DNA of 64,000 bases, taken from Glycomyces tenuis DSM 44171 (lineage in GTDB: Bacteria > Actinomycetota > Actinomycetes > Mycobacteriales > Micromonosporaceae). A model generated the notes under the pieces. It saw only the letters and a list, made by a program, of their open reading frames with translations. It did no database searches and was not told the DNA's origin. Shown in pieces: positions 8,705 through 45,428 of the stretch. Positions within the stretch are counted from its first letter, which is position 1; every line of letters begins with the position of its first letter. The DNA lies in contig NZ_ATYW01000004.1 in NCBI RefSeq assembly GCF_000427885.1, forward strand, positions 193 to 64,192. The letters are read 5' to 3'. A program made the position numbers and the translations under genes.

Positions 8705-9550
8705 TCAACCGGGCATGGTCTCGCCGCCGAGCGCGGCGATCACCTCGCCGGTGTAGTACGAGGAGAGCTGGTTGGCCGCCAGGAACACGTACGAGGGGGC
8801 GAGCTCGTCGGGCTCGGCCGCCCGGCCCAGCGGCACCCGCTCGCCGAAATTCTCCACATGGCTCTCGGGCAGCGTCGAGGGGATCAGCGGCGTCCACACC
8901 GGACCGGGGGCGACGCAGTTGACGCGGATGCCCCTGGGGGCCAGCACCTGCGCCATCGAGTAGGTCCAGGCGATGATCGCGCCCTTGGTCGCCGAGTAGT
9001 CGATGAGGCTCTTGTTGCCGCGCAGGCCGTTGACCGAGCTGGTGTTCACGATCGCGTCGCCCTCGCCCAGGTGGGCCAGCGCCGCATTGGTGACCCGGAA
9101 GTAGCTGTGCATGTTGACGTCGAAGGTGTGCGTCCACTGCTCGTCGGTGATCTCCTCGGGGCGCTCCACCGGCCGCTGCGTGGCGATGTTGTTGACCAGC
9201 AGGTCGAGCCCGCCCAGGGCCTGCACGGTCTGGTCCACGACGCTCGCGCAGTGCTCGGCCGAGGCCAGGTCGCCGGGCAACAGCGCGCATTGGCGCCGCT
9301 CGGCCTCGACCAGCTCGGCGGTGCGCTCCGCGTCCGCGGCCTCCTCGAGGTAGGCGATGGCGACGTCGGCGCCCTCCTTCGCGAACGCGACCGCCACGGC
9401 CCGGCCTATGCCCGAGTCGCCGCCGGTGATCAGGGCCCGGCGGTCCTTGAGCAGGCCGCGGCCCTCGTAGTCCTCCATGGAGTCGCGCGGCTCGGGCCGC
9501 ATCTCGGATGTGCGTCCGGGGGGCTCCTGCTGCTGTGCGGGCTTGCTCAT
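8705..9550 (-). CDS. SDR-family oxidoreductase (YghA/YdaD type)
   Basis: 281 residues. After a 40-residue leader typical of this subgroup comes the Rossmann NAD(P) motif TGGDSGIG, the NNIA motif, catalytic Ser in NTSSVNG and the YSATK Tyr-Lys pair. The C-terminal VNCVAPGPVWTPL and SSYYTGEV segments match the long-leader SDRs such as E. coli YghA and B. subtilis YdaD; the latter belongs to the SigB general-stress regulon. Substrate not known. A SigB-like promoter (9613-9637) lies upstream. Confidence 0.92.
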   Translation of the reverse strand: MSKPAQQQEPPGRTSEMRPEPRDSMEDYEGRGLLKDRRALITGGDSGIGRAVAVAFAKEGADVAIAYLEEAADAERTAELVEAERRQCALLPGDLASAEHCASVVDQTVQALGGLDLLVNNIATQRPVERPEEITDEQWTHTFDVNMHSYFRVTNAALAHLGEGDAIVNTSSVNGLRGNKSLIDYSATKGAIIAWTYSMAQVLAPRGIRVNCVAPGPVWTPLIPSTLPESHVENFGERVPLGRAAEPDELAPSYVFLAANQLSSYYTGEVIAALGGETMPG

Positions 9551-9612
9551 CGAAACGTCCCTTCCTCCGTCGCGAGGCCGGGCCTCCTGCCGGCCCGGCG
9601 TCGTGCGCACGG

Positions 9613-9637
9613 ATACCCCTGGCGCAGGGCCCTAATC
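9613..9637 (-). promoter_or_regulatory. SigB-like promoter of the SDR gene
   Basis: On the minus strand, GATT (9637-9634), 15 bases, GGGTAT (9618-9613). The -35 has one mismatch. Confidence 0.5.
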
Positions 9638-9655
9638 CCCGCGCCGATTCGAGGC

Positions 9656-9681
9656 GTGTAGTCCGCCGCGGGCCCGGGTAC
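9656..9681 (+). promoter_or_regulatory. SigB-like promoter of the DUF2267 gene
   Basis: GTGT (9656-9659), 16 bases, GGGTAC (9676-9681), 28 bases before the ATG at 9709 and divergent from the SDR promoter. Confidence 0.5.
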
Positions 9682-9708
9682 CCGCCCGAGTCGACGAATG
9701 GGGGAGTC

Positions 9709-10128
9709 ATGCAACACGATCAGTTCATCGGGCTCGTGCAGGACCGGGCCCACCTGTCCAGCCGCGGAGAGGCCGAGGGCGCCACCCGGGCCACGCTCGA
9801 GACCCTCGGTGAACGCATCCCCGACCATCTGGCCCTGCACGTGGCCGCGCAGCTGCCCACCGAGATCGGCGAGCACCTGCGCCGCACCACGCGCGCCGAC
9901 GGCCAGGGGACCGGCGAGCACTTCGGCTTCGACGAGTTCGCGCACCGCGTCGCCGAACGCGAGCACACCGACGAGCCCGACGCGATCTACCACAGCCGCG
10001 TCGTGTTCGAGCTCGTCGACCAGGCCACCACCGGGGCCGTCATGGACCACGTCCGCGACGCGCTCCCCGAGGACCTGCGGCCCCTGGTGGACTCGGGCAG
10101 CACCGGCCACATGAAACACGGCGAGTGA
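9709..10128 (+). CDS. DUF2267 protein
   Basis: 139 residues, starting after GGGGGAGTC. Two repeated halves of about 60 residues are visible, each with the pattern F...V....A....ATLETLGERI and PTEIGEHLR / A...MDHVRDALPEDLRPLV. This helical repeat (Rad-like, DUF2267) is common in actinobacteria near stress and CBS genes. Soluble; function unknown. It has its own SigB-like promoter. Confidence 0.85.
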   Translation: MQHDQFIGLVQDRAHLSSRGEAEGATRATLETLGERIPDHLALHVAAQLPTEIGEHLRRTTRADGQGTGEHFGFDEFAHRVAEREHTDEPDAIYHSRVVFELVDQATTGAVMDHVRDALPEDLRPLVDSGSTGHMKHGE

Positions 10129-10152
10129 CGCGCCGGGCGCGCAGCGGCACCG

Positions 10153-10177
10153 GTTAGGCGGACGCGCGTGCGGGTAC
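10153..10177 (+). promoter_or_regulatory. SigB-like promoter of the epimerase gene, probably leaderless
   Basis: GTTA (10153-10156), exactly 15 bases, GGGTAC (10172-10177). The ATG at 10187 is only 10 bases from the -10, and no Shine-Dalgarno sequence is present, so the transcript is probably leaderless. Confidence 0.65.
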
Positions 10178-10186
10178 ACGGCCCGC

Positions 10187-11242
10187 ATGGATGGACTGCA
10201 CGTCGTCGTCACCGGCGCCACAGGCAATATCGGCACCAGCCTCATCAGGCTGCTCAGCGGGGACGACCGCGTCGCGTCGATCCTCGGCGTCGCGGGGCGC
10301 CCGCCGCAGTGGCGCGTCCCCAAGACGGAGTTCGCCGCCGCCGACCTCGCCGAGGACGAGCTCGACCCGCTCCTCGAAGGCCGCGGCGCGGTGGTCCACC
10401 TCGCCTGGCTGATGCAGCCCACCCGCGACCCCCTCGCCACCTGGCGCGCCAACGTCGTCGGCTCGAAGCGGCTGTTCGAGGCCGTCGCCCGCAGCGAGGC
10501 GAAGACCCTCGTCCACGGCTCCTCGGTCGGCGCCTACTCGCCGCGCGTCGACCACCGCGCGGTCGACGAGGCGTGGCCGACCGACGGCTGGCCCGGCGCC
10601 GCCTACACCCGCGAGAAGGCCTACGTCGAACGCCTCCTCGACCTGTTCGAGGAGCGCAACCCGCACGTCAGGTCCGCGCGGATGCGCCCGGCGTTCGTCT
10701 TCAAGCGCAAGGCCGCCGCCGAGCAGCGGCGCCTGTTCGCCGGCCCGCTCCTGCCCGGCCGCCTCGTCCGCCCGCGCATGGTCCCGGCGATGCCCGTCGT
10801 CGACGGCGTCCGCTTCCAGGCCGTCCACGCCGACGACCTCGCCGAGGCGTTCCGCTCGGTCCTGTTCGGCACCGCCTCGGGCGCCTTCAACGTCGCCGGC
10901 GAGTCGATGACCGACATGCGCTCGATCGCGGCGATGCTCGGGGCCCGCGCCGTCCCGATGCCCTTCGCCGCCGCCCGGGCCGCGCTGGCCGCCGCCTGGC
11001 GGACCCGCATGGTCCCGGCCCCGCCCGAGCTGCTCGACGTCGTCACCCGCCTGCCGGTCATGGACACCGCGCGGGTCCGGCGCGAGCTCGGCTGGGTCTC
11101 CCACCACACCGCCGACGAGGCGTTCGCCGAGTTCATCGAGGGCCTGCGCACCGGCGCGGGCGGCCCGACGCCGCCGCTGCGGCCCGAGGTCGAGGGCGGC
11201 CGGCTCGGCGAGTTCGCCACCGGCGTCGGCGAGCGCCCCTGA
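10187..11242 (+). CDS. NAD-dependent epimerase/dehydratase (extended SDR)
   Basis: 351 residues. It has the Rossmann motif TGATGNIG at residues 9-16, HLAW, the catalytic Ser region VHGSSVGAYSP and YTREK as the Tyr-x3-Lys pair, followed by a variable substrate domain. It acts in the cytosol on a nucleotide sugar or a related carbonyl substrate; I cannot assign which. It has no ribosome-binding site, and the SigB-like -10 lies 10 bases from the ATG, which suggests a leaderless stress transcript. It stands between the DUF2267 gene and the arabinose operon, and ends the run of SigB-type promoters. Confidence 0.88.
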   Translation: MDGLHVVVTGATGNIGTSLIRLLSGDDRVASILGVAGRPPQWRVPKTEFAAADLAEDELDPLLEGRGAVVHLAWLMQPTRDPLATWRANVVGSKRLFEAVARSEAKTLVHGSSVGAYSPRVDHRAVDEAWPTDGWPGAAYTREKAYVERLLDLFEERNPHVRSARMRPAFVFKRKAAAEQRRLFAGPLLPGRLVRPRMVPAMPVVDGVRFQAVHADDLAEAFRSVLFGTASGAFNVAGESMTDMRSIAAMLGARAVPMPFAAARAALAAAWRTRMVPAPPELLDVVTRLPVMDTARVRRELGWVSHHTADEAFAEFIEGLRTGAGGPTPPLRPEVEGGRLGEFATGVGERP

Positions 11243-42761: not shown

Positions 42762-43733
42762 ATGCCCGGATTGCCCGTCCGACTCCTCGCGCCGCTGTGC
42801 ACGCTCGCCCTCCTGGCCGCCGGGTGCGGCGCGGGCGTCGAGGACGACCCGGCGGAGGACTACGGCCCCCTGGAGGCGTTCATCATGGGGACCGGCCCGG
42901 TCGGCGGCACCTACTACCCGCTCGGCGGCGCGATGGCCCAGATGTGGAACGAGGAGGTCGGCGAGCCGAGCGTCACCACGCTCGCCACCGGCGGCTCGGC
43001 GGAGAACCTCCGGATGCTCGCCGACGGCGAGGCGAACCTCGCGATGGCCGTCAACGGCACCGCCGCCGCGGCCGCGGCGGGGGAGGACGAGTTCGAAGGC
43101 GAACCGGTCGAGCTCGCGCTGCTGGGGAACCTGTACCCCGAGGTCGTCCAGATCGCGGCCGCCCCCGGTTCGGGGATCGCGACGCTCGACGACCTCGCGG
43201 GCAGGCGCGTCGCGGTCGGCCCGCCGGGCTCGGCCACCCAGGCGACGGCCGAGGCGGTCCTGGAGGCCGCCGGGGTCGTCCCCGGCGAGACCGTCGAGGA
43301 CGACTTCGGCACCGCCGCCCTCGCGCTCACCTCCGGCGAGGTCGACGCGGCCATCGGCGTCCTGGCCGTGCCCGACGTCGCGCTCGGCGAGGCGGCCGCC
43401 TCGAGCGGCCTGACGATGGTGCCCGTCCCCGACGACGTGCGCGCCCGCCTCATCGCCGACGACCCGACGCTCGCCGAGGCCGTGATCCCCGCGGGCGCCT
43501 ACGACGGGGTCGACGGGCCCACCGCCACCGTGCGGAGCTGGGCCGCGCTCTACGCCCCCGCCGAACTCGACGAGGACCAGGTCTACGCACTGGTGAAGGC
43601 CCTCTACGAGCACACCGGCGACATCGAGAACGCCGCCGCCGCCTCGATCACCGCCACGACGGCCACCGAAGGGAGCGCGGGCGTCGGCCTCCATCCGGGT
43701 GCCGAGCGGTACTTCGCCGAGCACGGCGGCTGA
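42762..43733 (+). CDS. TAXI-family TRAP-type solute-binding lipoprotein (orphan)
   Basis: 323 residues. A lipoprotein signal (PLCTLALLAAGCG, lipidated Cys at about residue 22) and a TAXI fold: MGTGPVGGTYYPLGGAMAQM, LATGGSAENLRMLADGEANL, VGPPGSATQATAEAVLEAAG, and the C-terminal TVRSWAALYAPAELDEDQVY. TAXI proteins bind small carboxylates or amino acids for TRAP transporters, but no TRAP membrane subunit (DctM/DctQ-like fusion) is next to it. It sits just after the glutamate importer. GGAGGA precedes the ATG and a TAGAGT -10-like element lies at 42729-42734. Ligand unknown. Confidence 0.88.
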   Translation: MPGLPVRLLAPLCTLALLAAGCGAGVEDDPAEDYGPLEAFIMGTGPVGGTYYPLGGAMAQMWNEEVGEPSVTTLATGGSAENLRMLADGEANLAMAVNGTAAAAAAGEDEFEGEPVELALLGNLYPEVVQIAAAPGSGIATLDDLAGRRVAVGPPGSATQATAEAVLEAAGVVPGETVEDDFGTAALALTSGEVDAAIGVLAVPDVALGEAAASSGLTMVPVPDDVRARLIADDPTLAEAVIPAGAYDGVDGPTATVRSWAALYAPAELDEDQVYALVKALYEHTGDIENAAAASITATTATEGSAGVGLHPGAERYFAEHGG

Positions 43734-43833
43734 GCGGGGACGGCTCGCCGTTCCCGCAGGCCGGGCCGGCCTGCGCCCCGCTCCGCTCGTTCCTTCCGTA
43801 TGAGGCGCAATCACATTGGGCCACTGCTAAGCT

Positions 43834-43867
43834 CTACTTGAAATCAGTAATCATTATCATCAAGTAG
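43834..43867. promoter_or_regulatory. AT-rich dyad upstream of the CooC-like ATPase (candidate Fur/Zur-type or other operator)
   Basis: Perfect 8-bp arms CTACTTGA (43834-43841) and TCAAGTAG (43860-43867) flank an AT-rich core containing TAATCATTATC (43848-43858). That core matches one half of the classic Fur-family box (GATAATGATTA on the other strand). The site ends 14 bases before the ATG, in DNA otherwise above 70% GC. Confidence 0.45.
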
Positions 43868-43881
43868 GGGACATCTCGACT

Positions 43882-44850
43882 ATGAAACTCGCCTTCGTCG
43901 GCAAGGGCGGTTCGGGCAAGACCACCATGGCGTCGCTGTTCGCGCGCCGCGCCGCCTCGCTCGGCCACACCGTGATGGCCATCGACGCGGACATCAACCA
44001 GCACCTCGCCGCCGCCCTCGGCCTCGACCCCGAGGCGGCCGCGATGGGCCCGGTCCTCGGCGAGCGGCTCGGCGGCATCAAGGAGTACCTGCGGGGGACC
44101 AACCCGCTGATCCCGTCGAGCGAGCTGATGCTCAAGACCACCCCTCCCGGTCCGGGCTCGCGCCTTCTGACGGTGGGGGAGTCGAACCCGATCTACGACG
44201 AGATCTTCTGCGACGTCGAGGGCATCCGCTTCGCGGCCACCGGCGGCTTCGTCGACGACGACCTCGGCGTGGCCTGCTACCACTCCAAGGTCGGAGCGGT
44301 CGAGCTCATGCTCAACCACATGATCGACGTGGCCGGCGAGTTCGTCGTCGTCGACATGGTCGCCGGAGCCGAGGCCTTCGCCTCGGGCATGTTCACGCGC
44401 TTCGACCACACGTTCCTCGTCTGCGAGCCGACCCTGCGCAGCGTCGGCGTCTACCGGCAGTACGCCGGATACGCGGCCGACTACGACGTCGACATCGCCG
44501 TGATCGGCAACAAGATCGACGACGAGGAGGACGTCGACTTCCTGCGCGAGCACGTCGGCGAGGCCCTCATCGGATGGTGCTCGCGCTCGCGGTACGTCAA
44601 GGCCGCCGAGCGCGGCAGCGTCGGACCGATCTCGGAGCTGGAGGCGCCCAACCTGGCCGTGCTCGACGCCGCCCGCGAACGGGCCGCGGCGGCCGGCAAG
44701 GACTGGGCGAAGTTCACCCGCCAGGCCCACGAGTTCCACCGCCGCGCCGCCGAGGCCTGGGGCAACGACCGGACCGGCATCGATCTGGCCGCGCAGATCG
44801 TCCCCGACTTCGTCCTCGGCGAGCACCTCCTGGACACCCAGCCGGTCTAG
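43882..44850 (+). CDS. CooC-like P-loop ATPase (MinD/ParA superfamily)
   Basis: 322 residues. The deviant Walker A is FVGKGGSGKTTMAS at residues 5-18, followed by AIDADINQHLAAALGL, the switch region FVVVDMVAGAEAFASGMF and the nucleotide-base motif VIGNKIDDEEDV. This matches CooC, which loads nickel into CO dehydrogenase, but no CODH, Ni-Fe hydrogenase or urease gene is present here. Such CooC-like ATPases are widespread in actinobacteria with unknown clients, presumably metal-centre assembly. The AT-rich, Fur-box-like dyad just upstream supports a metal-linked role. It is followed by the SCO5389-family gene on the same strand. Confidence 0.85.
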   Translation: MKLAFVGKGGSGKTTMASLFARRAASLGHTVMAIDADINQHLAAALGLDPEAAAMGPVLGERLGGIKEYLRGTNPLIPSSELMLKTTPPGPGSRLLTVGESNPIYDEIFCDVEGIRFAATGGFVDDDLGVACYHSKVGAVELMLNHMIDVAGEFVVVDMVAGAEAFASGMFTRFDHTFLVCEPTLRSVGVYRQYAGYAADYDVDIAVIGNKIDDEEDVDFLREHVGEALIGWCSRSRYVKAAERGSVGPISELEAPNLAVLDAARERAAAAGKDWAKFTRQAHEFHRRAAEAWGNDRTGIDLAAQIVPDFVLGEHLLDTQPV

Positions 44851-45017
44851 GCCGGACCCGTCCGAGCGGCGGGCGGACACGGCACCCGCACCGCCGCTTC
44901 CGCACATGTCCTGTCTAGACGGAATGCGCATGAAACCTGAATACGTCGATTACCCGACAGCGGAGAGTCACGATTCCCCGCACAATGAACCGGATTTCGA
45001 ACCGAGAGGAGAACCGC

Positions 45018-45428
45018 ATGTCCCTTGACGTCTCAGAGGACCTGCTCGCCAAGGCCGAGGCCGGGGAGGTCAGCGACGCCGAATTCATCGACTGCGTGAA
45101 GCACTCGCTGCCCTACGCCTGGGAACTCGTCAACGAGGTGGTGTCGGACCTGAAAGGCGGCGTGGCGGCGTCGACCGGCTCTACCCGGTTCGCTGACAAC
45201 ACCACGCCGCCGCCGGACGAGCAGGCGCGCGGCCAGCTGCTGCGCGCGCTCGCCTCGGACTCGATGCGCGGAGCGCTGGAGCGCCACTTCGGCGTGAAGC
45301 TGGCGTTCCAGAACTGCCACCGCGTGGCCGCCTTCCCGCTCTCGGAGGTCGACTCCGACACGTACCGCAAGTTCATCTCCCCGCGCGGGCAACTGCTCAA
45401 CCAGTCGCCGGAACTGCGCGACTGCTGA
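45018..45428 (+). CDS. SCO5389-family conserved actinobacterial protein
   Basis: 136 residues from ATG 45018 with GAGGAG upstream; a possible ATG at 44985 would add 11 residues. It has a very conserved C-terminal half (TPPPDEQARGQLLRALAS, GALERHFGVKLAFQNCHRVA, QLLNQSPELRDC) and N-terminal SLPYAWELVNEVVSDL. The protein is soluble with two to three conserved Cys residues (DCVKHS, FQNCHR, LRDC) that could bind metal or form disulfides. No function is known. It lies 167 bases downstream of the CooC-like ATPase on the same strand. Confidence 0.85.
   Translation: MSLDVSEDLLAKAEAGEVSDAEFIDCVKHSLPYAWELVNEVVSDLKGGVAASTGSTRFADNTTPPPDEQARGQLLRALASDSMRGALERHFGVKLAFQNCHRVAAFPLSEVDSDTYRKFISPRGQLLNQSPELRDC

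Follow-up and report, generated by a model that had tools for sequence, protein, structure and literature searches.

CooC1, an ATPase with the deviant Walker A motif GKGGxGKT, serves in nickel insertion and binds zinc, with nickel as a competitor, through Cys112 and Cys114 at the dimer interface (PMC6006190). The NTPases discussed in connection with Zur in the papers cited here belong to a different class, the COG0523 GTPases (PMC2770081, PMC6103462, PMC9164220). These proteins (ZigA/ZagA, MRF) are G3E GTPases which display a CxCC motif and lack the deviant Walker A (PMC9164220). The actinobacterial Zur regulon, with znuABC, rpmB2/rpmG2/rpsN2/rpsR2 and COG0523 genes, is characterized by boxes of the 7-1-7 type with the consensus tGaNNatSatNNtCa (PMC5472717), and the Zur sites of C. 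glutamicum for which binding was reported by band shift include TATTGAAAATGATTCCCAAAA (PMC2823685). In the rows of a review dealing with S. coelicolor and C. glutamicum no CooC-like ATPase is listed, and the C. glutamicum ATPase zra appears there under activated efflux (PMC6103462).

The window analysed here, a stretch of 64,000 nucleotides from Glycomyces tenuis DSM 44171 (genome size of 5.7 Mb), carries a CooC-related ATPase gene followed by a gene of the SCO5389 family. An earlier note on this DNA had described both genes together with a Fur-type dyad, and all three were confirmed at that place. The comparison with other promoters and genomes indicates that the ATPase gene is very probably under the control of Zur. 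A ChIP study of Zur in S. coelicolor reportedly lists 172 sites. With that site list standing outside the scope of the search, no earlier report of the ATPase as a Zur target was found in the accessible portions of the open literature searched, which included PMC5472717, PMC2770081, PMC2823685, PMC6103462 and PMC4726154.

The ATPase and SCO5389 genes of the window

The coding features and the block between them are the following:

43882-44850, + strand: CooC/MinD-class (deviant Walker A) ATPase of 322 aa, from the open reading frame and profile/structure searches
44942-44963, + strand: TACGTCGATTACCCGACAGCGG, a conserved block between the two genes, possibly a promoter/operator specific to SCO5389
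45018-45428, + strand: SCO5389-family protein of 136 aa with conserved C26, C100-H101 and C-terminal C136, from profile matches and alignment

Both genes are open, lie on one strand and are separated by a gap of 167 bp. The SCO5389 reading frame opens at 44985; the ribosome site and the start seen in the family favour the ATG at 45018. In named records, the closest orthologues of the window ATPase come from Glycomyces and are 83-89% identical. The block in the gap was located near CTGCGTCGATTACCCGACAGCGG in Glycomyces, where GACAGCGG is invariant in 14 aligned sequences. It holds a GTCG...CGAC dyad. Because SCO5389 has this conserved upstream block of its own, it may have a separate promoter in Glycomyces, where cotranscription with the ATPase would be uncertain.

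Upstream of the ATPase, a TAXI-family TRAP solute-binding protein is encoded at 42762-43733 (TIGR02122, 256 bits), beside an amino-acid-type ABC transporter. No TRAP permease was noticed among those ORFs of the 38-51 kb region that were looked at. An operon comprising this gene and the ATPase was considered and rejected, as no link was found and the upstream neighbours vary by genus.

The Walker A motif of the window ATPase reads GKGGSGKT, and an alignment of 56 ATPases showed G7, K8, G9, G10, G12, K13 and T14 to be invariant, with Ser in at least 90% at residue 11. By sequence, CooC of C. hydrogenoformans was the top solved relative (E 1.2e-8; 1.2e-16 in a profile search), and CooC1 also came first in the fold comparison (Z 20.0, rmsd 4.1, 244 residues aligned), the window protein being 68 residues longer than 3kje. 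NifH, BchL and MinD fit the fold about as well, and therefore the fold by itself names no function. The match to PF01656 (CbiA; 32.6 bits, cut-off 25.4) assigns a MinD/ParA/CobQ-type domain at the superfamily level only. Scores stayed below the curated MinD/ParA cut-offs, given in brackets, for TIGR01969 with 31 (201.75), NF041546 with 24.6 (180) and TIGR01968 with 22.4 (212.9) bits. Family profile searches of the window ATPase gave no match to COG0523/CobW; it has the deviant Walker A instead.

Profile alignment placed the CYC of CooC1 (Cys112, Cys114) onto a CYH motif of the ATPase family. In the window protein this motif is C132-Y133-H134, at the position of the metal-binding Cys-x-Cys of CooC1, and C132 and H134 were present in all 131 distinct ATPase sequences (CYH in 129, CFH in 2). 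The ATPase thus shares with CooC the Walker A motif, the overall fold and a metal motif at the matching alignment position. It differs from CooC in its Cys-x-His, in the Zur-type box, in the SCO5389 partner and in the lack of a CODH. The absence of a nickel enzyme, which had been noticed for the neighbourhood, was extended by zero matches to NCBIfam TIGR01702 (Ni-CODH) across the whole Glycomyces genome. Because the motif is not Cys-x-Cys and no CODH was found in the window's genome, the ATPase is not classed as CooC, though it may well work like CooC.

The box upstream of the ATPase gene

The promoter region of the ATPase gene contains three features:

43824-43833, + strand: conserved CTGCTAAGCT directly before the box, possible -10 region by inference from the Glycomyces alignment
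43834-43867, no strand assigned: outer dyad CTACTTGA-N18-TCAAGTAG, with arms at 43834-43841 and 43860-43867
43845-43859, no strand assigned: Zur-type 7-1-7 box CAGTAATCATTATCA, right half fitting the consensus and left half degenerate, from matrix and alignment

As written earlier, the dyad ends 14 bases before the ATPase start (ATG at 43882), and TAATCATTATC lies at 43848-43858. Alignment with 14 other Glycomyces promoters retained a core similar to TTGAAATCAACAACCATTTTCAA, whereas the outer 8-bp arms were not conserved. Read on the minus strand, the box is TGATAATGATTACTG, with one good and one poor half. By comparison with the znuA and rpmB2/COG0523 promoters found elsewhere in this genome and with the C. 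glutamicum sites, the Fur-type assignment could be narrowed, a candidate Zur (zinc) box being the best interpretation of the dyad. In the own genome, the znuA box is TGACAATGATTGTCA and the intergenic box between rpmB2-rpsN2 and COG0523 is TGAAAACGATTGTCA. A search of the whole 5.7 Mb with AAYSATTDTCA, a pattern picked after inspecting all three sites, returned four matches at only three places, namely the promoters of znuA (on both strands of the palindrome), rpmB2/COG0523 and the ATPase; the backwards control returned none. This likeness supports, as far as sequence goes, the metal-responsive character that had been proposed for the locus.

Dyads of the 7-1-7 type were also present upstream of ATPase orthologues, e.g. 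TGAAAACCGATATCA, TGGAAACGGTTTCCA and TGAAAATGACTATCA. For a matrix, 12 Zur-type sites belonging to other genes were used, without Pseudonocardiaceae; four of them came from the C. glutamicum paper and eight were self-picked by their Zur-box likeness at znuA/rpmB2 promoters. When 120 bp upstream were scanned at a threshold of at least 12 bits, matches were obtained for 64 of 81 ATPases, as compared with 13 of 1123 other called genes from these loci and 5 of 810 dinucleotide-shuffled sequences. By groups assigned from record titles, the box was detected in Glycomyces (15/15), in Micromonosporaceae and others (27/34) and in Pseudonocardiales and others (22/32). The window box itself reached 14.9 bits. 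A matrix of the four C. glutamicum sites only matched 79/81 ATPases, 14/1123 other genes and 10/810 shuffles, its top match in the window falling in the neighbouring register. These tests were done without four sites of an earlier matrix, three from an ATPase-derived pattern and one a further Pseudonocardiaceae znuA site. The control counts are, if anything, overestimates, because some high-scoring controls with the earlier matrix were Zur-type genes near the ATPase. A first motif count had been set aside, since its consensus was adjusted by eye to match the ATPase boxes and its random controls could contain the box. Conserved and far above the controls, the box is therefore more than chance.

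A pattern describing the ATPase boxes gave 20 matches in six genomes against 4 for its backwards control. Three of the 20 were the ATPase boxes of genomes G061, G062 and G066; the pattern does not cover the boxes of the three remaining genomes, and no match at all came from Micromonospora costi, one of the six. In A. thermalba, three of four matches were found at a ZnuA-family gene, at AztA and at the divergent L28-S14-S18 / COG0523 promoter, with both AztA (zinc ABC ATPase) and the COG0523 GTPase (MRF) exceeding their family cut-offs. The 14 matches left over are located at other genes, most of which are unrelated. No clear box was seen in the inspected upstream stretch of the ZnuA-family genes of L151, L154, L155, L157 and L159. 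The five lone ATPases inspected in presumed Streptomyces had no box either, a match at a start codon aside.

Zur-type genes were also found physically close to the ATPase. Among the best 80 of at least 513 named ATPase loci, nine carry such genes within 10 kb, six of these nine being Micromonospora and not independent. A Fur-family regulator gene is the convergent neighbour of the ATPase in L077, L084, L092 and L097, that of L077 failing to exceed any curated cut-off for a single subtype, and L141 has Fur-family matches farther away. COG0523, rpmB2 and rpsN2 matches occur near the ATPase in L077, L084 and L103; COG0523 GTPases and the ATPase are thus alike in being NTPases with a Zur-type box in these genomes and in their physical proximity. 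Others of the nine loci contain znuA or znuB matches. The matches of L112 and part of those of L141 are weak, and these may merely represent ABC components in general. In L103 (Pseudonocardiaceae MAG, 8883-10981), the genes of L28 and S18 paralogues are followed by the ATPase on the same strand. As a side observation, a gene which appears acetyltransferase-like by eye lies divergent from the boxed ATPase in L256 (4168-4845) and L259 (3338-4081) and may share the Zur-type box; the one of L256 had no NCBIfam match.

The SCO5389 family and its pairing with the ATPase

With 209.2 bits for NF040488 (cut-off 75) and 213 bits for PF20704 ('NucS shadow ORF'), the second protein is a clear member of the SCO5389 family, whose mean column identity is 76% over 43 sequences. 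All 105 distinct sequences have C100-H101 and the C-terminal C136, and 99 have C26. At the latter position, Val occurs in one sequence (Catenuloplanes) and Thr in five, all five being second copies in presumed Streptomyces (L256, L259, L262, L264, L267). Four of the five Thr26 copies follow a Zur-type box with a second ATPase. The copy of genome G324 had no box of at least 13/15 close by and no adjacent ATPase, and the loss of C26 as a pure mark of Zur control was rejected on this account. The loss resembles that in zinc-free ribosomal-protein paralogues, with C100, H101 and C136 staying in place, which may be taken as a hint only.

The AlphaFold model of SCO5389 had a mean pLDDT of 86, the last four residues including C136 being of low confidence. 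None of 337 Foldseek matches reached E <= 0.001, and the best VIA-align match had a Z of 3.3, i.e. no clear relative was obtained, which does not prove a new fold. The weak fold matches, all with Z <= 3.3, include KH domains. A search of the family profile against PDB sequences gave no match up to E 1. In the one paper found to name it, SCO5389 is given as a hypothetical protein 2.00-fold higher in an ahpC mutant of Streptomyces tsukubaensis (PMC7602649).

In 32 SCO5389 loci, which are mostly the best-scoring ones and weighted to one genus (g57), nucS lies beside SCO5389 in 25 and a luciferase-like (LLM) oxidoreductase is nearby in 26. In two loci of presumed Streptomyces with both genes labelled (L261, 3141-5675; L266, 2748-5452), SCO5389 and nucS are arranged back to back, with an overlap between their longest ORFs. 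In the best 80 of at least 513 ATPase loci, the LLM oxidoreductase recurs as a third neighbour, within 3.5 kb in 21, and nucS was found near none. SCO5389 as a mere shadow of nucS was rejected for the window, since nucS sits on a different contig of the same genome and the protein is conserved.

Of 296 genomes sampled across the class, 58 had the ATPase (E <= 1e-30) and 75 had SCO5389 (E <= 1e-10). SCO5389 was present in 57 of the 58 genomes with the ATPase versus 18 of the 238 without (Fisher p 9e-44, uncorrected for kinship). The exceptions are G261, which has the ATPase without SCO5389, and the 18 genomes with SCO5389 and no ATPase. Among 61 genomes comprising the own one and its relatives, 34 have an ATPase orthologue above 300 bits, a broader tally of 47 including weak ATPase paralogues. 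Within the genus of the window, SCO5389 was found in 22 of 22 genomes and a whole ATPase in 21. In G020 of this genus (L046), and also in G023 (L045), a 3' remnant of the ATPase lies inside the contig beside an intact-looking SCO5389.

Again in the best 80 of at least 513 ATPase loci, SCO5389 occurs within the available flanks in 54, always on the ATPase strand: directly downstream in 43 (gap of at most 60 bp in 22, of 61-400 bp in 21) and upstream in 11. The flanks of the other 26 contain no SCO5389; 23 of these are Pseudonocardiales, and five had less than 2 kb of downstream sequence. In the inspected loci of presumed Streptomyces (genus g57, family f33), a lone ATPase and a lone SCO5389 lie apart. 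Four such genomes (G084, G255, G272, G289) carry a second ATPase that precedes a second SCO5389. G263 yielded a single ATPase, behind which lies a partial second SCO5389 too short for the count. Where SCO5389 is located upstream in Micromonospora, the box lies between the upstream genes and the ATPase, and therefore it need not govern SCO5389. The idea of a pair, as put forward in the earlier note, thus holds for adjacency and for co-occurrence elsewhere, but not without exceptions.

A putative role in zinc handling and its alternatives

From the box and the Cys-x-His motif, we consider it about an even chance that the ATPase performs a Zur-repressed, ATP-driven handling of zinc, with SCO5389 as its partner or client and with a chaperone mechanism that we infer. 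When zinc is sufficient, Zn-Zur would bind the box, which directly follows the presumed -10 region, and block transcription. Upon zinc shortage the ATPase would be made, as suggested by the sequence of the box, its conservation and its company. The ATPase may then form a dimer about a single metal ion, to which each subunit contributes Cys132 and His134, and ATP binding or hydrolysis would open and close this site, so that zinc is loaded or released. With C26, C100, H101 and C136, SCO5389 would be the likeliest client or hand-over partner. Zinc as the metal, the site at the dimer interface and the transfer to SCO5389 are all predicted steps. The 'metallocentre assembly' proposed earlier is plausible, given the Zur link and a Cys-x-His where CooC has its metal site.

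A protein may be regulated by Zur and yet move no metal. The ATPase could be a MinD/ParA/Get3-like protein acting with SCO5389 in another process, e.g. nucleic-acid upkeep, which is needed or re-wired in zinc shortage. The tie of its fold with MinD and NifH, the frequent nucS and LLM oxidoreductase neighbours of SCO5389 in loci weighted to one genus, the name of PF20704 and the weak KH-like matches are in line with this reading. It is nevertheless rather unlikely, as the Cys-x-His falls exactly at the metal-holding position of CooC1 and as no nucS was seen close to any of the best 80 of at least 513 ATPase loci, the gene lying on another contig in the window's genome. Nor would the metal have to be zinc. 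Fur-family boxes resemble one another, and the box could be that of Nur, Mur or Fur and the ATPase an insertase for nickel or cobalt. In L077, the Fur-family gene adjacent to the ATPase passes no subtype cut-off. CooC1, whose role is in nickel insertion, binds either nickel or zinc at one and the same site (PMC6006190). Against this, the box is common to the znuA, rpmB2 and COG0523 promoters, which are those of standard zinc genes, it matches the C. glutamicum Zur sites, and the genome has no match to Ni-CODH (TIGR01702), which makes an insertase of this kind improbable.

An ordinary gene pair, in which dyad and cysteines have no metal meaning, would agree with the half-degenerate window box and the unconserved outer arms. 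The conservation of the box across genera, the controls and the linkage to Zur-type genes already disfavour it, and we regard it as very improbable. Returning to zinc handling, a more specific form of this proposal is put forward tentatively, at somewhat less than even chances: a CooC-class ATPase whose Cys-x-Cys has been converted to Cys-x-His and which has come under Zur would constitute a novel type of zinc metallochaperone and the ATP-driven equivalent of the COG0523 GTPases, SCO5389 being its dedicated small client. The second SCO5389 copy of Streptomyces-like genomes, mostly Zur-linked, would then have lost C26 (to T) as zinc-sparing paralogues do.

Because its gene stands behind a box like that of zinc-starvation genes, the ATPase, often paired with SCO5389, is probably a new part of the allocation of scarce zinc in many soil actinobacteria. 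If true, a second zinc hand-out system based on a different NTPase class would be present in 58 of the 296 sampled genomes, including many presumed Streptomyces, and the SCO5389 family would gain its first functional setting. The candidate client SCO5389 and the residue pair C132/H134 would make the zinc-chaperone idea directly testable.
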